This document shows positions 278 through 11,397 of a DNA stretch of 64,000 nucleotides, piece after piece. The notes beneath the pieces were generated by a model. The model was not told the origin of the DNA and made no database searches. It saw only the letters and a list, made by a program, of their open reading frames with translations. The stretch comes from Lentisphaerota bacterium. GTDB lineage: Bacteria; Verrucomicrobiota; Kiritimatiellia; RFP12; JAAYNR01. Every line of letters begins with the position of its first letter. Positions within the stretch are counted from its first letter, which is position 1. A program made the position numbers and the translations under genes. The DNA is taken from positions 1 to 64,000 of the forward strand of contig VGWG01000002.1 in the NCBI GenBank assembly GCA_016873675.1, in the 5' to 3' direction.

Positions 278-1165
278 TTACCGTGAGGCGGCCCGGCGGG
301 CCGATTCCAAGGTGTTGTGAAGCAGCATGGTGATGGTCATGGGGCCGACGCCGCCGGGAACGGGCGTGATCCGCCCGGCGGTCTCGCAGGCCGAGGCGAA
401 ATCCACGTCGCCGACGAGCCGAAAGCCGTTGCGCGCCGCCGCATCGGGGATGCGGTTGACACCCACGTCAATCACCGTCGCGCCCGGTTTGATCATGCTC
501 CCGGTGACCGTTCCGGCGCGGCCGGCGGCGACCACGAGGATGTCGGCCTGGCGGGTGAAGGAGGCGAGATCGCGCGTGCCGGTGTGACAAACCGTGACCG
601 TCGCATTGCCGCCGGGGGCCTTGCGCATCAGCAGGTGCGCCACCGGCTTGCCGACGATGTTCGAGCGTCCGATCACCACGGCATGACGGCCTGAGGTCTC
701 GATGCCGCTGCGGACGAGAAGTTGGATGATGCCGTGCGGGGTGCAGGGGAGGTAGCATGGCTCGTCGATAAGCATCCGCCCGATGTTCACCGGCGTGAAG
801 CCGTCCACGTCCTTGGCCGGCGCGATGGCGTTGATCACCGCCTTTTCGTCAATGTGGCGCGGCAGCGGGAGTTGGACGAGGATGCCGTGGATGCGCGGGT
901 CGGCGTTCATGCGGCCGACCTCGGCCAACACGGCGGCTTGCGAGCTGTCCGCCGGAAGCCGACGATCCTCCGAATACATCCCCGCCTCGACGCAGGCTTT
1001 CTCCTTGGCTGTCACGTACGAGGCCGACGCGGGATCCTGGCCGACCAGAATCACGCCCAGCCCCGGCGTCACCCCCGTACGGGTCTTCAGCTCCTGCACC
1101 TGGCGCGCGATCTCCGCGCGCATCTCCGCCGCCGCCTGCTTGCCGTCAAGGATGATTGCGCCCAT
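278..1165 (-). CDS. folD: Bifunctional methylenetetrahydrofolate dehydrogenase/cyclohydrolase FolD
   Basis: 295 residues, the usual FolD length. FolD interconverts 5,10-methylene-THF, 5,10-methenyl-THF and 10-formyl-THF in cytoplasmic one-carbon metabolism. Visible signatures are the catalytic-domain YVTAKEKAC segment with its Lys, the QLPLPRHID motif, the dinucleotide-binding VIGRSNIVGKP, and the C-terminal PVPGGVGPMT. The ATG at 1165 has an AAAGG-type ribosome binding site about 7 bases upstream. It lies between the ferredoxin gene (121 bases upstream) and the phosphatase (4 bases downstream), all on the same strand. Confidence 0.97.
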   Translation of the reverse strand: MGAIILDGKQAAAEMRAEIARQVQELKTRTGVTPGLGVILVGQDPASASYVTAKEKACVEAGMYSEDRRLPADSSQAAVLAEVGRMNADPRIHGILVQLPLPRHIDEKAVINAIAPAKDVDGFTPVNIGRMLIDEPCYLPCTPHGIIQLLVRSGIETSGRHAVVIGRSNIVGKPVAHLLMRKAPGGNATVTVCHTGTRDLASFTRQADILVVAAGRAGTVTGSMIKPGATVIDVGVNRIPDAAARNGFRLVGDVDFASACETAGRITPVPGGVGPMTITMLLHNTLESARRAASR

Positions 1166-1286
1166 AAGACCTTTCGGAAGGTAAAAGCCGGTGCGCTTGC
1201 CGGACCGCTCCTGCCGGTGCGGCAGGGGTGGAATTCAGAAGCCAGTGTTCACAGGCAGAGCCGCCGCCGCCGGCGGGAAAGACGCC

Positions 1287-1460
1287 TCACGCGCCGGGTT
1301 CGATCGCGTCGCTCGGGCAGGCGCCCGTGCAAGCGCCGCAGTCCACGCAGGTGTCGGGGTCGATCACATACTTGGGGTCGCCCTCGCTGATCGCTTCAAC
1401 CGGGCAGGAGTCCTTGCACGCGCCGCAGCGGGTGCACTTGTCGGTAATGACGTAGGCCAT
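1287..1460 (-). CDS. 2[4Fe-4S] bacterial-type ferredoxin
   Basis: 57 residues, typical of clostridial-type ferredoxins. Two CxxCxxCxxxCP clusters are present: CTRCGACKDSCP near residue 9 and CVDCGACTGACP near residue 38, giving two [4Fe-4S] centres. It is a low-potential electron carrier for oxidoreductases of anaerobic metabolism. I chose the ATG at 1460 rather than an in-frame upstream codon because an AAAGGAA ribosome binding site sits just ahead of it and the protein then starts at the conserved MAYVI. A good promoter lies at 1545-1573. Confidence 0.95.
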   Translation of the reverse strand: MAYVITDKCTRCGACKDSCPVEAISEGDPKYVIDPDTCVDCGACTGACPSDAIEPGA

Positions 1461-1544
1461 GATAGTGTTTCCTTTATTTGTCCCGAGCCGCCGATCCGGT
1501 CCCGCAGACAAACACGGGACACCCTGTGACGTGGGAAGGGACAC

Positions 1545-1573: not shown

Positions 1574-1602
1574 GCAGAGGATTTTTCGTGTGTGTGTGTG
1601 GG

Positions 1603-2066
1603 GGTGCGTGGGTGTGTGATCGGGTAGGGCAGCGGCGTCCCGCCGCGCCGCGGGCGAATGGAGAAGTGTGTGGGTGTGGGAGTGCGTGGGTGTGTGATCG
1701 GGTAGGGCGGCGGCGTCCCGCCGCGCCGCGGGCGAATGGAGAAGTGTGTGGGTGTGGGAGTGCGTGGGTGTGTGATCGGGTAGGGCGGCGGCGTCCCGCC
1801 GCGCCGCGGGCGAATGGAGAAGTGTGTGGGTGTGGGAGTGCGTGGGTGTGTGATCGGGTAGGGCGACGGCGTCCCGCCGCGCCGCGGGCGAATGGAGAAG
1901 TGTGTGGGTGTGGGAGTGCGTGGGTGTGTGATCGGGTAGGGCGGCGGCGTCCCGCCGCGCCGCAGGCGAATGGAGGGGTGAGTGGGCGTGTGTGCGTGGG
2001 TGTGTGATCGGGTAGGGCGACGGCGTCCCGCCGCGCCGCAGGCGAATGGAGGGGTGAGTGGGCGTG
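1603..2066. repeat. Six tandem copies of a 78-bp GC-rich repeat
   Basis: The copies begin at 1603, 1681, 1759, 1837, 1915 and about 1991. Four are exactly 78 bases long and nearly identical; the last two are slightly shorter and more diverged. Each unit has a GT-rich half (TGCGTGGGTGTGTGATCGGG) and a hairpin-forming core in which CGGCGG and CCGCCG pair around CGTC. Because 78 is divisible by three the array reads open as a 26-residue repeat, but that apparent protein has no ribosome binding site or family resemblance. Diverged copies in the same orientation occur at 7329-7475 and inverted copies at 7530-7780. Confidence 0.93.
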
Positions 2067-2078
2067 TCGCTAACCGAC
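2065..2078 (+). repeat. Left copy of a 14-bp inverted repeat bounding an island
   Basis: TGTCGCTAACCGAC follows directly after the last 78-bp repeat. Its exact reverse complement is at 7315-7328, directly before the next copies of the same repeat. The pair encloses the DUF2075/HNH gene group. It could be the end of a mobile segment or the trace of an inversion; no transposase or recombinase gene is visible between the copies. Confidence 0.55.
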
Positions 2079-2420
2079 CACCGTCACGTCGTCGTCTCCT
2101 CGCGCCTGGCGAGCACCAGGTCGCGTCCGGCGGCGGGAAATGGAACCATCGGCGTCGGTATCGGTATCACTATCCAGGAAAACACCGGAATTTCGACCCC
2201 GACTCCGACACCGACCCCGATGGCCCACGCGCCTCATAATGAGAATTGCTGCAAAGCATCACGCCTGCACAAACTCCTTCCTCATCCCCTCGCGCTCGCC
2301 CTGCGGCAGGGTGGGGAAGTTCCGTCCGTTGTCGGGCTGCGTGCCGGATCAGGTGGCGGCGCCCCCGCCGTGGGCAAAAGGGGAAGTATGTGCGTGTGCG
2401 GGTGTGAGGGCGCGTGGCAA
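2079..2420. other. Gene-free spacer inside the island's left edge
   Basis: No convincing gene is present. A short stretch read on the minus strand (2259-2345) looks like a protein C-terminus rich in normal residues (PDNGRNFPTLPQGEREG, then MRKEFVQA and a stop) but is preceded by an in-frame stop. It may be the relic of a lost gene. Around 2150-2225 there is a simple-sequence stretch of CGGTATCGGTATC and CCGACACCGACCCC type. The rest is unassigned. Confidence 0.45.
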
Positions 2421-2448
2421 GGAAGGCCCGCCCCTTGGCGGGCCTTCC
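2421..2448 (-). terminator. Strong hairpin after the DUF2075 gene
   Basis: A perfect 12-base-pair stem (GGAAGGCCCGCC with its complement) around a 4-base loop, six bases beyond the DUF2075 stop codon. The U-tract on the minus strand is poor (TTGCC), so termination may be partial or Rho-assisted. Confidence 0.6.
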
Positions 2449-2454
2449 GTTCTG

Positions 2455-4482
2455 TCAGGCAAGCACCGGAATACCCAGGCTGGCCAGATACTCAAAGGTT
2501 CGGTCATAGTGTTCTGGAATGCGCGTGGGGTCGCTCTCTTCGCCCGGCGGGATGAAGATGACCATGCCTTGCCGCGCTCGGGTGAGAAGAACGCGGTACG
2601 CGTTGCGGAGGTAGTTCCGGCGATCCTCCTTATGCACGCTCTGCCACCGATCGCCGCGGAATGTGTGGTAGCCCCAGCCTGATCCCAAGAACCGGAGGTC
2701 GGCGTCCCAGTTCACGCAGACCCAGTCCAGTTCAAGGCCCTGAATGTCGAACTGCGACGCGGCATCCTCAAGATAAAGACTCGAACGCGTGTCGCGCCTG
2801 TCGTCGAGGAACCAGTGGACCGGGTCAATGCTCACGCGGACATCAATAGCGTGTGGCTTCAGCCGCTGAGCCTCGGAGGATGCGACCATTCCGAAACGCT
2901 CGGTTCCCCGCGCTCGCTGCCGGATCCAGGTCTTGGCCTGCTCGATGTCACGGGTGAGCGCGATGGGATAACGTTGGCGCAACTTCGCGAACGCTTCTCG
3001 CGCCCTCTCGATCTCACAATCCAGCACAGCCTTGACGAACGCCGACACGTTTTCGGCGCGGAACGAGCGCATGGAGACGGCCAGATGGAGCGCGCCATCG
3101 AAGTGCGTGTCGGGTCTTGATCGCACGGCGTCGATGGCCTGTCCGGCGGCGTATTCGCTGTCCGTCAGTTCCTGTGAGATGTAGACATGCCACCAGGGGA
3201 ACGACGTGTTGATGGCTTCGAGCCATGCGCCAATGCCGGCCTCGCCCGTGTTGATCTCCTGCCCGCCTCCCACCAAGCAGACAACGACCGCCCAATCCTC
3301 GTGCCGGTCCAGGTACGATATCAGGAACTCCGGCTCCGACCGGGTAAAGCCCTGCACCTTCTTCTTCCGGTGCATGAACGCCGAGGTCTGTGCCGTGTTC
3401 CACGCCCTTTGCGCCTCGTCGAAGATCACGACATGATCTATCGGCGGGGTCGTCTCGCGAAGCGCCTCGTCGCGGAAGTGGTGGACGTTCTGAATGAACG
3501 CCTTGACGCATTCGTACACCTTCCCCTTGCGAACCTTCTCGCCGCCTGACCTTTTGCGCGCCACTTCATCGCGTGTCAGCGCCTCACGCAGAACGGCAAC
3601 CAGAGGGCCATTGCCGGACAGGAAGACCGCGTGGGTTGGGCGTGTGGTATCCCGCCGCTTTGTGGCGACGTTGAGACCCACGAGGGTCTTGCCCGCCCCC
3701 GGCACGCCCGTCACGAAACAGATGATCTTGGTCCGCGACGCGCGGGCCTGCTCGACCAGTTCCTCGATTCGGGTTGAAGTCACTTGCAGATTCCGGGCGC
3801 CAGCATCGTGGCGGGCGATGGCATCCACCGAGTGCTGGGCATAGAGCGATTGGGCCGCCTCGATGATCGTGGGTGTGGGATGGTATGACGCCGCACCCCA
3901 CTGAACTCCATCCAGCGGCACACCCGGATGCTCTCTTAACCCCGAGGCAATGATGCCCCGGAGCCCCTGACTGTTTGACTGTACAGGCGGATAGACCTGA
4001 TCCTCATGCGGCGGCGGCAAGCCCCAATCGCCCGCAGGCGCTTCAGTCGCCACCAGAATCGGCATAATCGAGACGGCGTGGCTGGCCTCGTGGAAGTTCT
4101 TTAGGTCCAGAGCGTAGTCCCAGACCTGATCCAGATCGGCGCGAGTGAAATGCTTCTCGCCGACCTTGAACTCGATCACGAAGACCATCGCCCCGGCCAC
4201 CACCACGGCGTCAATCCGCTTCCCCATGCGTGGGATATTGAACTCCAGGAACAGTGTCCCGTCGAGTCCCTGGAGCGAATCTTTTAGAATCGCGAACTCC
4301 TGAAGCCACGCGTCCCGTTGCGGCGGTTCAACTGCCATCTCGCTGTTGGCCAATAGCACGCCGAGAACCGTTTCCGGGGTCGATGTCAAAAATACGGTGA
4401 TCGGCGCGCTGTAGTAGGCGCGTGGCAGGAGCGAAGTTTGGTTGATCTCCGTCATGGGTCTTTGGCACTGCTTGGTCGGCAT
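2455..4482 (-). CDS. DUF2075 (Schlafen group 3-like) helicase/ATPase with N-terminal nuclease-like domain
   Basis: About 675 residues. Residues 75-140 look like a PD-(D/E)xK nuclease fold: RIDAVVV supplies an Asp (about 91) and VIEFK an ExK (about 105-107), followed by a helical segment. The DUF2075 P-loop ATPase follows, with Walker A GVPGAGKT near 260, Walker B VVIFDEAQRAW near 352-361, a GGGQEINTGEAG motif, and a C-terminal GLELDWVCVNW helicase-type segment. Family members are superfamily-1-like helicases often found near restriction or defence genes. The start is uncertain: TTG at 4491, ATG at 4482 and ATG at 4455 are possible, none with a clear ribosome binding site. It is last in the four-gene minus-strand island and is followed by a hairpin. 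Confidence 0.85.
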   Translation of the reverse strand: MPTKQCQRPMTEINQTSLLPRAYYSAPITVFLTSTPETVLGVLLANSEMAVEPPQRDAWLQEFAILKDSLQGLDGTLFLEFNIPRMGKRIDAVVVAGAMVFVIEFKVGEKHFTRADLDQVWDYALDLKNFHEASHAVSIMPILVATEAPAGDWGLPPPHEDQVYPPVQSNSQGLRGIIASGLREHPGVPLDGVQWGAASYHPTPTIIEAAQSLYAQHSVDAIARHDAGARNLQVTSTRIEELVEQARASRTKIICFVTGVPGAGKTLVGLNVATKRRDTTRPTHAVFLSGNGPLVAVLREALTRDEVARKRSGGEKVRKGKVYECVKAFIQNVHHFRDEALRETTPPIDHVVIFDEAQRAWNTAQTSAFMHRKKKVQGFTRSEPEFLISYLDRHEDWAVVVCLVGGGQEINTGEAGIGAWLEAINTSFPWWHVYISQELTDSEYAAGQAIDAVRSRPDTHFDGALHLAVSMRSFRAENVSAFVKAVLDCEIERAREAFAKLRQRYPIALTRDIEQAKTWIRQRARGTERFGMVASSEAQRLKPHAIDVRVSIDPVHWFLDDRRDTRSSLYLEDAASQFDIQGLELDWVCVNWDADLRFLGSGWGYHTFRGDRWQSVHKEDRRNYLRNAYRVLLTRARQGMVIFIPPGEESDPTRIPEHYDRTFEYLASLGIPVLA

Positions 4483-4523
4483 CTGCGCCAATCGGCGAAT
4501 GGTAACCCTTCAGCCCTTCTCCC

Positions 4524-5306
4524 TTACTCCCAGGGATGCCGCTCTTTCCAGTCGTCGATAATGGAAAGTGCGTGCAGTTCGCTTATGGTGCCAGCATCGA
4601 CGAGCACGTTCAACGCTCCAGTCGCGTTAGAACGGCTGTCCGTGCGCTTGGCGAAGTTCAGCAAGAATTGTTCGATCTCGTCCGGAACAGGTGCGCTTTC
4701 CCGCGCCTTGAAATACTCCTCCAGAAAAACGATCGCGCCTCGCGCCTCAAGCCGGCGGTCCCGCTTCAGCGCGGCCAGCGCCAGCGGCACGGACGACGGG
4801 ATGTCAAAGAACCACCCGGCGGAACCGAGAATCTGGAATGCCCCCACACGGCGCATGCCGGCGAACGGGTCGCGCGACCGTGTGTACGCAAAGCAGTCAA
4901 GGGCATACGTACAGATATCGCGCATGATCGTACATGGCGCTTCGAGATCGGCCGGACAACCGGCACACTCAGGGAATACCAGGAACTGGTTGAGACCGGC
5001 GGCGTCGAACGCGTTCCCGCAGTTACGGACGACGTGGTCGAGATGCTCCATCAGCTTCTCTTCCGCTGTGGCCCGCCCCGGTCCGCCGGCATCCCTGGCC
5101 AGTCGTGTGACGTCGATGAGATCCCATGCCTTCTGCACGTCCAGAGCCACTTCATCCATGAACACGTAGAGGTTCATCGCGGCATGATGAAGCACAATAT
5201 CCCGGTCGTTCAGGTCGGGCGCCGCCAGAATACGGCGCAAGTCGGCAAGCGCAGGTTCGTACTTGCGTTGCGTCTCGATGTAAAGATCCTTGGGGCGGCG
5301 GCTCAT
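4524..5306 (-). CDS. Hypothetical alpha-helical protein in the helicase/HNH island
   Basis: 260 residues; I do not recognise a family. The sequence is rich in Leu, Ala, Asp and Arg and looks wholly helical, perhaps HEAT-like. There are paired cysteines in PECAGCPADLEAPC (about 122-135), no signal peptide and no membrane segment. It ends 41 bases before the first ATG of the DUF2075 gene and begins 108 bases after the HNH gene on the same strand, so it is probably co-expressed with them. The ATG at 5306 was preferred to an in-frame GTG at 5318. A partner or regulatory subunit of the nuclease/helicase is an inference from position only. Confidence 0.75.
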   Translation of the reverse strand: MSRRPKDLYIETQRKYEPALADLRRILAAPDLNDRDIVLHHAAMNLYVFMDEVALDVQKAWDLIDVTRLARDAGGPGRATAEEKLMEHLDHVVRNCGNAFDAAGLNQFLVFPECAGCPADLEAPCTIMRDICTYALDCFAYTRSRDPFAGMRRVGAFQILGSAGWFFDIPSSVPLALAALKRDRRLEARGAIVFLEEYFKARESAPVPDEIEQFLLNFAKRTDSRSNATGALNVLVDAGTISELHALSIIDDWKERHPWE

Positions 5307-5414
5307 GCAGACACACACTCATGTTGTGAAGATGCAGCAGGATACCCCATCCATCGGTCGCAGACAAGAAAGAACGAAAACCGTTGCTTCACCATTCATG
5401 GCGCCCGCACGGCG

Positions 5415-6278
5415 TTACCGTCGTTCAAAGCACGTGTCGCGGTGGTAGGCCAGGTAGCTCTTCGATTGGAGGGGGACGCGCCGCAGATGCATGTCTTCCG
5501 TGACGTACATCCGTCGTTGGTCATCCTTGCTCCAGAGGTTTGAGATGATCACACCGCCATCGTCACGGAAGGAGATCAACCCTTGATCAAACAACGCGTC
5601 AAGGTTCGGAACGAGGAGAAGCCCGTTGTAGTGATCCGCCTTTTCGTGCGGCACCGCTTCCGCCCACGGCTTGATATGGGCGGCGACAAGCACTCGGTGT
5701 TCCTGCACACCGGTCACCGCACAGGAGCCATCCCAGAGCCGCAGCACGTTCCCGCGAAAAATGCGCTGGACGATGCCGCGCCGGCTGGCGACAATTTTGC
5801 GATCAATCGCGCAAAGAGCGTGCGTGCTGACGGTCTTGTAGTCCGCGCCCTCTTCGGCGACCTCCGAGGCTAACGCTGGGATGACCTGCTCTCGGGCAAC
5901 AACCGCAAACGTGAACTTGCTGGGGCGATCAACCCTGGGCTCACACCCAAGCAAGATGATCCGGCCGTGGTAGATGAAGGGGCTGTGATGCCGCTGCCGG
6001 TAAAAAAGGTGAATCTCATCCCCGCGCTCGGACGCCGCCATAATACGAGCATCCGAGCGGTGTCCTGACTCACCTTCCCAGAAAAGCAAGTCCTCTTGGA
6101 TGAAATCATCGTACGGCGTCAGGCACAGTTGTTTCTCGTGGGTGACAAACAAGACGATGAGATCCTTCCCTCTCGGCGTAAAAACACCCCGGCTGATCGC
6201 CTGATATCCCTCCAACCCCCACATGCGCGCGAGCTGGGGGCGCTCGTAGGTCTGGCCTATTTGGAGTTCATCGAACAT
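5415..6278 (-). CDS. HNH endonuclease with N-terminal DUF3427-like domain
   Basis: 287 residues. The C-terminal third is a clear HNH_2-type nuclease: CAVTG, then AAHIKPWAEA, then HYNGLLLVPNLDALFDQGLISF in two blocks, giving the His and Asn metal and catalytic residues. The N-terminal 150 residues (FDELQIGQTYERPQL, AISRGVFTP, ILFVTHEKQ-like and HLFYRQRHHSPF) resemble the domain attached to some restriction helicases and HNH proteins, usually labelled DUF3427. The likely role is DNA cleavage, possibly of foreign DNA. I chose the ATG at 6278 because residues upstream in the same frame are encoded by the ACGGAC repeat and look artificial. No strong ribosome binding site is visible. Confidence 0.87.
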   Translation of the reverse strand: MFDELQIGQTYERPQLARMWGLEGYQAISRGVFTPRGKDLIVLFVTHEKQLCLTPYDDFIQEDLLFWEGESGHRSDARIMAASERGDEIHLFYRQRHHSPFIYHGRIILLGCEPRVDRPSKFTFAVVAREQVIPALASEVAEEGADYKTVSTHALCAIDRKIVASRRGIVQRIFRGNVLRLWDGSCAVTGVQEHRVLVAAHIKPWAEAVPHEKADHYNGLLLVPNLDALFDQGLISFRDDGGVIISNLWSKDDQRRMYVTEDMHLRRVPLQSKSYLAYHRDTCFERR

Positions 6279-6380
6279 GGGGGTGATCCGGTCCTGCGGC
6301 AGCTTTTCCTTGGTTTCGGTTCGGTGCCAGCATACCGATTCCGCGCCGACACCGCCAACCTTTTCCGCACGGCGCGAGGC

Positions 6381-6442
6381 ACGGACGGGCACGGACGGGC
6401 ACGGACACGGCGCGAGACACGGACGAACACGGACCGCCACGG
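6381..6442. repeat. ACGGAC-type short repeat cluster
   Basis: Several imperfect copies of CACGGACGGG and ACACGGACGAACACGG lie in the gap between the four-helix gene and the HNH gene. The same sequence forms inverted-repeat elements at 6644-6724 and 7158-7218. It is probably one dispersed repeat family that here has only one arm. Confidence 0.75.
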
Positions 6443-6467
6443 CGCAGGCGCGATCAGCGGTGTTGCG

Positions 6468-7139
6468 TCATGGCGCGTGTCTTCTGGCGCTGCGCACACG
6501 ATACAACCGTTCCGTGAAACCGCCTTCCTTCTCGAAAGCGGCGGCCTGCGCCTCCAGTTGCCGGCCGATCAGGTGAATGCAGAGGTTGAGCAGGGAGAGT
6601 GCGCCGTTCGCGGCGCAGACGGCGGGAAACGCCGCGGCGCAAGACACGGACGAACACGGACCGCCACGGACAGCGACAGCGGCCCCTTTCGTGTCCGTCC
6701 GTGCTGGTCCGTGTCCGTCCGCGCCCTTCCGGGCCAGCTTCGACTCCGCTGCCACCCACGCCCGGAACTGTTCCAGCGTGGCGCATTGCAGCGCCTTGAA
6801 GCGCATCAGCGCCGGGTGCCGCAGCGGCCATTCGGGCAGGTCGCGGTGCTGCAGGAATTTCTTGAAGTCCCGTTCAAGCTCTTTGAGGCTGCCGCGGGCG
6901 ATGCCGGTGAGTTTGATTTCGATCTTCCTGGAGACCGCCGAATCCATACTGCCTTCCTGCAGGTTCTGGCAGCCGCTCCGCGCCGCCTGCACCATCTGGT
7001 CGTGCGTGCGACTGCGCTTATCCACAAAGCGGTCGCAGAAGCGCACGGTCACGTCGTAGATCAGGTCGGCGAGCTGCCAGGACTTCGTGTGCTCGTAGCC
7101 GCCATGCTTCGGGATGAGTGTCTCAGGTTCAGGCGCCAT
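6468..7139 (-). CDS. Four-helix-bundle protein with suffix domain, interrupted by a repeat
   Basis: 223 residues. Residues 8-135 match the four-helix-bundle family related to 23S rRNA intervening-sequence proteins: GGYEHTKSWQLADLIYD, then RTHDQMVQAARSGCQNLQEGS, then KLTGIARGSLKELERD. The C-terminal part (ALSLLNLCIHLIGRQL and EEGGF-like EKEGGFTERL) matches the suffix domain often attached to it. Between them, residues about 139-166 are low-complexity and encoded by an ACGGAC inverted repeat (6644-6724), which inserted without breaking the frame. The ATG at 7139 has an AGGAGA ribosome binding site. The molecular role of this family is not established. It is first in the minus-strand island order. 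Confidence 0.85.
   Translation of the reverse strand: MAPEPETLIPKHGGYEHTKSWQLADLIYDVTVRFCDRFVDKRSRTHDQMVQAARSGCQNLQEGSMDSAVSRKIEIKLTGIARGSLKELERDFKKFLQHRDLPEWPLRHPALMRFKALQCATLEQFRAWVAAESKLARKGADGHGPARTDTKGAAVAVRGGPCSSVSCAAAFPAVCAANGALSLLNLCIHLIGRQLEAQAAAFEKEGGFTERLYRVRSARRHAP
6644..6724. repeat. ACGGAC inverted-repeat element inside the four-helix gene
   Basis: The left arm (6644-6662) is ACACGGACGAACACGGACC. The right arm (6706-6724) is nearly its reverse complement, and the middle carries one more GTGTCCGTCC. It lies in the linker between two protein domains and keeps the reading frame. Confidence 0.75.
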
Positions 7140-7157
7140 GGAGGTCTCCTTTCGTGG

Positions 7158-7218
7158 ACACGGACAAACACGGGCCGCCACGGACGTTGGCGGCGGCCGT
7201 ATTCGTGTCCGTCCGTGT
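7158..7218. repeat. ACGGAC inverted-repeat element upstream of the four-helix gene
   Basis: The left arm at 7158-7176 (ACACGGACAAACACGGGCC) and the right arm at 7195-7218 (with GTGTCCGTCCGTGT) can form a hairpin. It starts just upstream of the ribosome binding site, so it may lie in the 5' leader or promoter of that gene. Confidence 0.7.
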
Positions 7219-7314
7219 GCGCGGCCGCTCAGCGCTTTGTCCAGCCGCCCGGCAGGGTGACATGATGGCAAAAGCGCGCGCTCTTTGTCAACGCGCGCGA
7301 CAACGCGCGCGGTA

Positions 7315-7328
7315 GTCGGTTAGCGACA
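7315..7328 (-). repeat. Right copy of the 14-bp inverted repeat bounding the island
   Basis: GTCGGTTAGCGACA is the exact reverse complement of 2065-2078. It is followed directly by diverged 78-bp repeat copies in the same direction as the left array, so the order repeat / 14-mer / genes / inverted 14-mer / repeat holds on both sides. Confidence 0.55.
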
Positions 7329-7475
7329 GGGGGGGCAGTGCGTGGGTGTGTGAGCGCGAAGTGATCGGGTAGGGCAGCGGCGTCCCGCCGCGCCGCAGGC
7401 GAATGGGGAAGTGCGGGAGTGTGTGGGTGTGTGATCAGGTAAGGCAGCGGCGTCCCGCCGCGCCGCCGGCGAACG
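7329..7475. repeat. Two diverged copies of the 78-bp repeat
   Basis: Two units with the same GT-rich half and the AGCGGCGTCCCGCCGCGCCG core as the array at 1603-2066, in the same orientation. The stretch 7219-7314 before them and 7476-7525 after them holds no gene that I can see. Confidence 0.85.
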
Positions 7476-7570
7476 AATAAAGGCCTATATCGCTATCGGG
7501 ACAATGCGGGATTTCGCTCCCGCCCCCGATGACCCACACACCCACACACTTTCCCATTCGCCCGCGGCGC

Positions 7571-7780
7571 GGCGGGACGCCGCTGCCCTACCGCGCTACC
7601 GCGCATTTCAGCATTTCAGTTTTCAGTTTTCAGCTTTTCTCTTCGGCGGGACGCCGCTGCCCTACCGCGCTACCGCGCATTTCAGCATTTCAGTTTTCAG
7701 TTTTCAGCTTTTCTCTTCGGCGGGACGCCGCTGCCCTACCGCGCTGCCGCGCATTTCAGCATTTCAGTTTTCAGCTTTTC
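7571..7780. repeat. Three tandem copies of a 74-bp repeat, inverted core
   Basis: The units begin at 7571, 7645 and 7719. Each starts with the reverse complement of the 78-bp repeat core (GGCGGGACGCCGCTGCCCTA), followed by a run of CATTTCAG and TTTTCAG motifs. The third copy is one TTTTCAG shorter and stops at the pseudouridine synthase stop codon. A single inverted core with its CCCACACACCCACACAC flank precedes them at about 7530-7570. Confidence 0.9.
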
Positions 7781-8524
7781 TCAGGCGTCGAGCCGTTTCA
7801 GGTCGGCGGGGGTGAGGGCGCGCCAGGCGCCGGGCTTGAGCGCGGGCGCGGTGAGGCCGCCGATCGCGGTGCGGACGAGGCGGACAACGTGGAAGCCGGC
7901 GCGGGCGCAGAGGTGGCGGATCTGGCGGTTGCGGCCCTCGGAGAGGGTGATCGCCACGAGGTGGCAGGTGTCGCCGGCCGACAGGACGCGGACCCGGGCG
8001 GGGCGGGTGAGGTAGCCGTCGAGTTCGATCGGCTCGCCGAGGCTGCGGACGGCGGCGGCGGAGAGCCGGCCCACCACGGTCACCTCGTAGGTCTTGGTGT
8101 GGCCGTGGCGCGGGTGGGTCATCCGCTGGATGAACGCCCCGTCGTTGGAGAGGAGCAGCAGCCCCTCGCTCTCCTTGTCCAATCGCCCCACCGGCACGAG
8201 CCGCTCCGGGAGATCCACCAGCTCGCAGACCGACCGCCCCTGCGTCGTGTCGGTGCTGCAGACCACGCCCGGCGGCTTGTTGAGGAGGATGGTGCGCGGC
8301 CGTTCGACGGCCGGGAGCGGGGCGCCGTCCAGAAGGATGGCGTCACTTCCGGGATTGACACGGAAGCCCGGTTCTGTGATTGTTTCACCGTTGACGGTGA
8401 CCCGGCCTGAGGCGATGATCCCGGCCGCATGACGGCGCGAGGCCACGCCGCTGCGGGCGAGGACGAGCTGGAGGCGGTCGGAACCGGCGGGACGCGGAGC
8501 ATTATGCGGAGGAGTGTTGGGCAT
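7781..8524 (-). CDS. RsuA/RluB-type ribosomal pseudouridine synthase
   Basis: 247 residues. An N-terminal S4 RNA-binding domain (RLQLVLARSGVASRRHAAG, then GRVTVNG) is followed by the pseudouridine synthase core, with catalytic Asp in VGRLDKESEGLLLLSNDG (about residue 112) and the GRNRQIRHLCARAG motif. Members isomerise a specific uridine in 16S (RsuA) or 23S (RluB/RluE) rRNA. RluB-like is most likely from the S4 domain and length, but the site cannot be fixed from sequence alone. It is divergent from polA. Its 3' end abuts the 74-bp repeats. Confidence 0.93.
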   Translation of the reverse strand: MPNTPPHNAPRPAGSDRLQLVLARSGVASRRHAAGIIASGRVTVNGETITEPGFRVNPGSDAILLDGAPLPAVERPRTILLNKPPGVVCSTDTTQGRSVCELVDLPERLVPVGRLDKESEGLLLLSNDGAFIQRMTHPRHGHTKTYEVTVVGRLSAAAVRSLGEPIELDGYLTRPARVRVLSAGDTCHLVAITLSEGRNRQIRHLCARAGFHVVRLVRTAIGGLTAPALKPGAWRALTPADLKRLDA

Positions 8525-8679
8525 GGGTTTGTCGGACCGTGAGTATATGCGAGAACGGGGCGCCGTGTCGCCACAAAAACCGCGCGCGGGGTGGTGGGCG
8601 CGATTCCGCTTCTGGCTCTGGCGGCTGCGGACCGGGCGTTGAACCCTACTGAAGCGATGGGGCGGGAAGGGGTGACACC

Positions 8680-11397
8680 ATGGGGCAGAAACTGTTTGTG
8701 ATCGACGTCATGCCGATTCTCTATCGGGGGCATTTCGTTTTTCTCAAGAATCCGCAGCTGACCAGCACGGGGCTCAACACCTCGGCCTTGAACCTGTTCG
8801 CCACGACCGTCGCGCAGATCCTGTCGGAGCATGCGCCGTCCCATGTGGCGCTCGTGCTCGACTCGATCATGCCGACGTTCCGCCATCAGGAATACCCCGC
8901 CTACAAGGCCCAGCGGCAGAAGACGCCCGAGGACATCACTGCGGCCATGCCGATGGCGATCGAGCTGGCCGGGGCGCTGAAGATCCCGATGCTGCGGGTG
9001 GAGGGCTTCGAGGCCGACGACCTGATGGGGGCGCTGGCCGCATGCGCCAGCCGCGAAGGACTCGAGACGTATTTGGTCACGCCGGACAAGGACATCGCCC
9101 AGTTGGTCGACGCCACCACGCGCCTCTATCGGCCGGGCAAAGCTGGCGCAGGCCCCGAGATCTTGACCGTTGACGATGTGTGCAGGCACTGGGACATCGC
9201 CAGTCCGGCGCAGATGGTGGACTACCTGGGACTGGCGGGTGACGTGGCCGACAACATACCCGGCATCACCGGGGTTGGCGAGAAAACGGCTGTGGCGTTG
9301 CTCAAGCAATTTGGGTCGCTCGATGCGGTACTGGACGGGGTTGCGGCCATTAAGGGCAAGCTGGCCGAGAAGGTCGCGGCAGGCCGCGAGCAGGCGCTGA
9401 TCAGCCGGCGGCTGGCCACGATCCGGCGCGATGTGCCGCTGCCGGTGACGCTGGCGGATCTGGCTCGACGCGAACCCAACCGGGAGGCGCTGCACGCTGT
9501 CCTGGCGAAATACGAGCTGCTGCAGGCCGGCCAGCGCCTGCTGGGCGGCGAGGCCGTCGCGCGGGCACCCCAGGCGGAGGTCCGCACGATCCGCGATACG
9601 CCCCATGCCTACACCTGCGCGAGCGGCGAAGCCGAGGTGGCGGCGTTGATCGAAGAACTCCGCGCGGCGCCGCTGTGGGCCTTCGACACCGAAACCACGG
9701 GTTTGGAGGCTTGGGAAACGGAACTGGTCGGCATCTCCTTCTCGACGCGGGCGGGGACGGGTTGGTATCTGCCCGTTTCTGCCGAACCGGCGGCGCGGGA
9801 GGCGCTGCTGGCCCGGTTCCGTCCGCTCTTTGAAGATGCATCCAAGACGCGGATCGGCCACAACGCCAAGTTTGATCTCACCGTGCTGCGGCATCACGGC
9901 ATTCGCGTGGCTGGCACGCTGCACGACACGCTGCTGACGCATTACGTGCTTGACGCGGCCGAGCGGCACGGGCTGGACTACCTCTCCAAGCAATACCTCG
10001 GCTACGATCCCATTCCGATCACGGCGCTGATTGGCGAGCGCGGCCCCGCGCAGATCACGATGCGCGAGGTGCCTCTGGAACAGGCGGCGGAGTATGCGGC
10101 CGAGGACGCCGACATTGCCCTGCGGTTGCATGAGCATTTGCGGCCTCTGGCCGACGCGGCGGGGTGCGCGCGGGTGTTGCAGGCGAGCGAGGAGCCGCTG
10201 ATTGCGGTATTGATCGCGATGGAGGCCGAGGGTATCCGCGTCGATCCCGCCGCCCTCAAGGCCTGCGGCCGTGAACTGGAGCGCGATCTGCTGGAACTGG
10301 AGCTGAAGATCCGCGAGTATGCGGGCGGCGGCAGCTTCAACCTCGCCTCTCCCAAGCAAATGGGCGAACTGCTGTTTGGCCAGCTCAAGCTCGACCCCGA
10401 CGCCAAGCGGACCACATCGGGGCAATATGCGACCGACGAGGACACCCTGCTCAAGCTGGCGGGGAAGCATCCGATCGTGGAGCTCATTCTCGATCACCGC
10501 GCCTGCAGCAAGCTGAAGAGCACCTATGTCGACAAGCTTCCCGAAAGCATCCATCCACAAACCGGGCGCATCCATACCACCTTCAGTCAGGCGATGACTG
10601 AGACCGGACGGCTCTCGTCGGTGAACCCCAACCTGCAAAACATCCCGATTCGCACGGCGCGGGGGCGGCGCGTGCGAGCCGCGTTTGTGCCGCGGGACGC
10701 CGGGCACGTGCTGCTCTCGGCCGACTACTCGCAGGTCGAACTGCGGGTGATGGCGGCGATGAGCGGCGACCGCGGGATGATCGAGGCGTTTGCGCGGGGG
10801 GCCGACATCCACACCGAGACCGCCGCGCGGGTGCATGGCATCCTGCCGGCGCTCGTGACGGCCGAGATGCGGTCACAGGCCAAGATGGTCAACTTCGGCA
10901 TCATCTACGGAATCAGCGCCTTTGGTCTGTCGCAGCGGCTGGGCATCCCGCGCAAGCAGGCCGCCGAGTTGATCGAGCACTATTTCGAGCAGTATCCCGG
11001 CGTCAAGACCTACATGGACGCCACCATCGCCTTTGCGCGCGAGCACGGCTATGTTGCGACGCATCTCGGCCGCCGCCGCTGGCTGCGCGACATCACCTCG
11101 CGCAATGCGACGTCGCGTCAGGCGGCCGAGCGCAACGCGATCAACACGCCGATCCAGGGGACGGCGGCCGACCTGATCAAGCTGGCGATGGTGCGGATTC
11201 AGCACGAGATCGAAGTCCGCCGGTTGCGGGCTCGAATGGTGCTTCAGGTCCATGATGAGCTGGTTTTCGACGTGCCGCGCGAGGAGATTGAGGCGGTCCG
11301 GACGCTCGTCACGGAGGCGATGCGCAACGCCCTCGACCTCGGCGTGCCGCTCGATGTCGAGATCGGCGTCGGAGAAAACTGGCTGGAAGCGCATTGA
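8680..11397 (+). CDS. polA: DNA polymerase I
   Basis: 905 residues with all three domains. The 5'-nuclease domain (1-300) shows [23 protein letters not shown] and [20 protein letters not shown]. The 3'-5' exonuclease (about 310-490) keeps FDTETTG (DxE) and [10 protein letters not shown], so proofreading should be active. The family A polymerase domain carries motif [13 protein letters not shown], the O-helix [10 protein letters not shown] and motif [11 protein letters not shown]. It fills gaps in repair and Okazaki fragment processing. The ATG has an AAGGGGTGA ribosome binding site. Confidence 0.98.

Follow-up and report, generated by a model that had tools for sequence, protein, structure and literature searches.

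The window analysed here, a stretch of 64,000 nucleotides from a Lentisphaerota bacterium, contains a four-gene block whose borders raise the question of whether the block is itself a mobile or invertible unit. The 14-mer TGTCGCTAACCGAC lies at 2065-2078 on the plus strand and its exact reverse complement at 7315-7328, with no other exact copies in the window, and when the two arms were extended by the next bases, 18 of 19 positions matched (TGTCGCTAACCGACCACCG / TGTCGCTAACCGACTACCG). The first-pass annotation had placed this pair at the junctions between the 78-bp repeats and the gene block, and had noticed that none of the four genes between the repeats (2455-7271, all on the minus strand) codes for a transposase or integrase; both observations were confirmed. 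Since other exact inverted 14-mer pairs are present in the window, an exact pair is by itself not rare. The exact 14-mer occurs four times in the 3.17-Mb genome, against about 0.02 copies expected in random sequence, and seven further copies have one mismatch. Thus, the significance of the 14-mer comes from its genome-wide recurrence together with its boundary position, and not from exact inverted pairing alone.

A dispersed family of short inverted-repeat elements

Chance occurrence of the 14-mer was ruled out by its recurrence across the genome in a common context. In ten of the eleven exact and one-mismatch copies, the 14-mer belongs to a longer motif, TGTCGCTAACCGAYYAC, preceded on the 5' side by a repeat tract and followed on the 3' side by unrelated DNA; nine of these tracts are CAC-rich or poly-C, that of the window's left copy is GTG-rich, and the eleventh 14-mer copy looks like a chance match. 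A non-autonomous transposon (MITE) family of high copy number has a terminal inverted repeat (TIR) of about 21 bp (GTRRTCGGYTRGYGACAGGGG), and TGTCGCTAACCGAC is part of it. When we counted the TIR motif with up to three mismatches, the window's genome had 21 copies and a sister species 13; two genomes from another family of the same order had 139 and 22, and a reversed-pattern control gave 3, 2, 1 and 1, respectively. With a stricter pattern, a scan of public genomes returned 106 stretches, and the matches listed came nearly all from metagenome-assembled genomes (MAGs) labelled Lentisphaerae, Verrucomicrobia or Kiritimatiellae. A GTTAG core had suggested an integron attC/attI-like site, but this reading was rejected: the copies pair as TIRs, and a search for an integrase gave none.

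The copies pair as GTAATCGGYTRGYGACAGGGG...CCCCTGTCRCYARCCGATTAC around short elements, and 43 distinct complete TIR-bounded elements were collected, most of them 150-450 bp long and mostly below 500 bp. Perfect target duplications of 7-10 bp flank 13 of the 43, and in nine cases the duplication is exactly 9 bp (about 0.0002 perfect 9-mer duplications are expected by chance); L159 and L083 have 8-bp duplications, and most others 9 bp. When 164 end copies were compared, the sequence was near-random from the first base past GTAAT and strongly G on the opposite side. This abrupt drop of conservation at the GTAAT side establishes GTAAT as the outer end of the element. Complete elements of the window's own genome (C48 and C29) showed no clear target duplication, and no orthologous flank that would give a clean empty site was found for the C48 and L085 elements. 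The C24 element lies upstream of a gyrB/parE-type gene; homology to the sister species restarts 10 bp past this element and the other flank is unaligned, a pattern that lends only partial support to insertion of a MITE at this site.

Taken as a family, these repeats have the properties that define MITEs, namely short TIR-bounded elements, target duplications, and ends in common with transposase-coding elements. Prokaryotic MITEs are non-coding, shorter than 500 bp, bounded by TIRs of about 4-30 bp, present in high copy number and moved by related insertion sequences, and younger copies have direct target repeats (PMC10969869). The present family is likewise short, TIR-bounded and high-copy, with target duplications in some copies, but it is G+C-rich where prokaryotic MITEs in general are AT-rich, and its copies in the window's genome also differ from them in containing an expandable 78-bp GC-hairpin/GTG unit (PMC10969869). 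In having a minisatellite array inside a MITE it resembles BrickBuilt of Porphyromonas gingivalis, whose 23-nt unit is unrelated in sequence and host; the 78-bp unit, by contrast, is also found without TIRs (PMC4596501). The family accounts for repeats that are also seen near contig ends in these assemblies.

IS66-type elements as the candidate partner

Two full-size elements with this type of end code for transposases. The first, 2012 bp long (L159:346-2357), has the family TIRs and an 8-bp duplication and codes for an IS66 DDE transposase (PF03050, 120.9 bits) and a DUF6788 protein. It comes from a MAG labelled Planctomycetota, a label that may reflect mis-binning because many copies are found in a Verrucomicrobia MAG that shares its UR sample prefix. 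The second, 2023 bp long (L243:1366-3388), is from G029, a genome of the window's own order, and has 22-bp TIRs (GTAATCGGTTGGTGGCCGGGGT) and a 9-bp duplication (TTCCGCCAG). Its transposase is 76% identical to the L159 protein, and this copy may not be intact, since the frame has one TGA stop. In both elements a 109-aa DUF6788-type ORF precedes the transposase (L159:1898-2227, L243:2922-3251), which may be an accessory transposition protein; at L181, a DUF6788-like ORF stands beside a 355-aa ORF. From their ends and coding content, we suggest that the 2.0-kb IS66-type elements are the likely autonomous partner of the MITEs, and mobilisation in trans is predicted.

Published IS66 elements have ends starting with GTAAGCG and 8-bp duplications (PMC11946415), and ISDge4, a member of the ISBst12 group of single-ORF IS66 elements, has ends starting with GTRAC (PMC12898284). 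The family agrees in part with this ISBst12-like group, in ends that begin with GTAA or GTGA, in the 8-bp duplications of some copies (PMC12898284, PMC11946415), and in a proposed partner with an IS66 DDE transposase and no tnpA/tnpB pair. It differs from published IS66 elements in its ends (GTAATCGG instead of GTAAGCG) and its mostly 9-bp duplications, and from the ISBst12-like group in the DUF6788 ORF that accompanies the transposase of the proposed partner. Since the IS66-type elements L159 and L243 have the same type of TIR, and published IS66 ends are partly similar, the repeats are, judged from sequence, named here an IS66-type MITE family; a high-copy family of this type, mostly in Kiritimatiellota-type MAGs, is now recognised together with a likely transposase source.

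No transposase with the family ends was found in the window's genome; a partner of its own is either absent or was not assembled. The only IS66 transposase of this genome, at C37, was considered as the partner and rejected, as it has a tnpABC-like layout and ends that do not match. Related IS66-type transposases of the same order (L244, L245 and L246) have long TIRs of their own (GTAACCGGTCAGG..., GTAATGGGTTACTCGG... and GTAATGGGTTAGTCGG...), and for this reason further MITE families of IS66 type may exist.

Two truncated copies flanking the gene block

With a probability of about 0.9, we consider that the 14-mers are the inward-facing TIRs of two separate, truncated IS66-type MITE copies that flank the block (Table 1). 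Both outer ends face the block; the block therefore lies outside both elements, and these TIRs cannot bound it as a transposon. Each window copy has one TIR, and in this it departs from a complete MITE with both TIRs and a target duplication. For the left copy, no left TIR was detected at up to five mismatches, and the right TIR of the right copy is absent. The relation of the right copy to complete elements is visible in the 24-base stretch at its start, which aligns with the same stretch of C48, a complete element of 449 bp, as does part of the far arm.

Table 1. Features at the locus as annotated in this work (window coordinates)
Feature	Positions	Strand	Remarks
folD and ferredoxin genes, conserved left flank	278-1544	-	Proteins 93.6% and 88.2% identical to those of the sister species
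Left truncated MITE: 78-bp units with a GC hairpin core in a GTG-rich array, and right-hand TIR	1587-2081	+	Repeats, alignment to C48/C29
Right-end TIR of the left element	2061-2081	-	Outer end 2081 faces the block; contains 14-mer 2065-2078; differs from the 21-bp consensus at 3 positions, all of them at its inner end
Schlafen group 3 type DNA/RNA helicase (PF09848), PADLOC candidate PDC-S41	2455-4491	-	
Protein of unknown function, 264 aa	4524-5318	-	No match in Pfam or PADLOC
HNH endonuclease (PF13391), resembling HNH models of restriction enzymes	5415-6440	-	The listed GTG is probably upstream of the true start
23S rRNA intervening-sequence (four-helix bundle) type protein (23S-IVP-type)	6468-7271	-	Weak match, 29.0 bits against a Pfam cut-off of 33.8
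Left-end TIR GTAGTCGGTTAGCGACAGGGG of the right element	7312-7332	+	Outer end 7312 faces the block; contains 14-mer 7315-7328; 0 mismatches to the 21-bp consensus
Right truncated MITE, made up of left TIR, 78-bp units, centre and inverted arm (7515-7592)	7312-~7592	+	Right limit approximate
rluB-type pseudouridine synthase (minus) and polA (plus), conserved right flank	7781-11397	.	rluB 90% identical in the sister species

The 78-bp repeats occupy 1616-2066 and 7361-7433. The two clusters had been described as keeping the same orientation, which is true of the direct copies at 7361-7473, but the right cluster also has an inverted copy at 7515-7592. The 14-mer is not a fixed part of every repeat copy, and the hairpin/GTG unit occurs in the window's genome also away from any detected TIR, indicating that the unit is a separate dispersed repeat, carried by the MITEs and expanded here. 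The TIR at 2081 is joined to a GTG-rich rather than a CAC-rich arm, unlike all other copies seen in the window's genome, and this shows that the left copy was rearranged, apparently by joining of TIR and array through GTGT microhomology. Next to the right copy, three 74-bp tandem copies (CGGCGGGACGCCGCTGCCCTACC...TTTCAGTTTTCAG) at 7570-7791 directly adjoin the end of rluB, and a similar tract, CTGAAAACTGAAAG, adjoins the TIR copy at C65. The C48 MITE of the window's genome (L092) contains a nested copy of a second family of palindromic repeats, GAGGCKCTTGCAAAACC...GGTTTTGCAAGAGCCTC.

When we compared the locus with the sister species, homology stopped at 1586 and restarted at 7781. The four-gene block is absent from the folD-ferredoxin/rluB-polA interval of that species, and is thus not conserved in place in all relatives; instead, the interval holds 1.7 kb with a gene judged by eye, on its translation, to be metallophosphatase-like, and with a palindromic repeat of another family, GAGGCKCTTGCAAAACC...GGTTTTGCAAGAGCCTC (L116:7751-7925). 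The stretch read of this insert contained no TIR of the MITE family. Neither folD nor ferredoxin was present in the stretch read beside the rluB of G002, so this genome was unusable for synteny. The helicase is patchy: it is present in 10 of 59 genomes with the window's genome counted, and the version in a genome of another family is 74% identical. The gene for the 264-aa protein was found in 2 of 59, counted in the same way. The GC3 of the four block genes is 66-76, against 81-89 in neighbouring genes. Based on the absence in the sister species, the patchy distributions, the lower GC3 and the PDC-S41 and restriction-type matches, the block appears to have been acquired as cargo, in an intergenic interval of variable content; its helicase, 264-aa protein and HNH nuclease may form a small defence module. 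A short repeat, GACACGGACGAACACGGACCGCCACGG, and its complement occur at 6396-6442, 6623-6669 and 7137-7217, around and inside the 23S-IVP-type ORF, and apparently lengthen its C-terminal half.

The truncated copies could have arisen as follows. A transposase of the L159/L243 type, perhaps since lost from the window's lineage, would have moved the MITEs in trans, and two copies would have inserted into the fast-changing folD-ferredoxin/rluB-polA interval. The internal GTG/GC-hairpin unit of both may have grown into the 78-bp tandem repeats, and the far ends of both copies would have been lost, with the four-gene block as acquired cargo between the MITEs and outside both. Such an arrangement is fairly ordinary, and transposon ends that face a gene block are easily misread as ends of the block.

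Alternative readings of the block

Nothing that we found points to movement or inversion of the block by the TIRs. It is nevertheless conceivable, if unlikely, that the locus is a fossil composite or exchange unit, in which once-complete MITEs brought the block in by composite transposition or homologous recombination and their outer ends later decayed. MITE copies on both sides, the foreign-like GC3, the patchy helicase, the other cargo at the same site in the sister species, and the precedents for MITE-flanked cargo reviewed in PMC10969869 are in keeping with this, but the outer TIRs are absent, no duplication flanks 1586/7781, the part read of the sister's insert is free of the family TIR, and MITEs are common enough here that chance bracketing is plausible. 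At 2065-7328 itself, the ends present all face inward and there is no duplication, unlike in a composite transposon. Defence-type cargo, such as the PDC-S41 helicase and the HNH nuclease, might also be swapped at a ferredoxin/rluB hot spot by recombination between IS66-type MITEs, whose expandable 78-bp interiors would offer portable homology; we regard this as improbable.

An invertible segment, in which the inverted 14-mers or the inverted 78-bp arms recombine and flip the block, is very improbable; the inverted 14-mers and the 78-nt inverted arms at 1623-1700 and 7515-7592 (85% complementary) would allow it, but the block has no recombinase, the other evidence makes the 14-mer a TIR, and no inverted version was seen.

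That 2065-7328 forms a non-autonomous transposon in its own right, with termini TGTCGC...GCGACA, is scarcely credible. Exact inverted ends lie at both borders and the sister species lacks the block, but the poly-G side, not the gene side, is the conserved element side in the 164 copies, so that the outer ends facing the block have the wrong polarity for such a unit. The gene-side DNA is unrelated at the other 14-mer copies, and there is no target duplication around the 14-mer pair, whose immediate outside flanks (GAGTGGGCG / GGGGGGGCA) differ. An empty or inverted site with the 14-mer at its junction, as envisaged by the first-pass annotation, was not found, and the sister species holds different cargo there. 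Its proposal of a non-autonomous mobile unit held in so far as the 14-mer is the end of a non-autonomous element, but the mobile unit is the repeat clusters and not the block.

Least probable of all is a regulator-binding or promoter element as the primary nature of the 14-mer: at L042, L045 and L050 a start codon follows 50-110 bp downstream of it, which makes a secondary promoter effect possible, but the copies at L049 and L051 adjoin gene 3' ends (by eye), and copies pair in inverted orientation as TIRs with target duplications.
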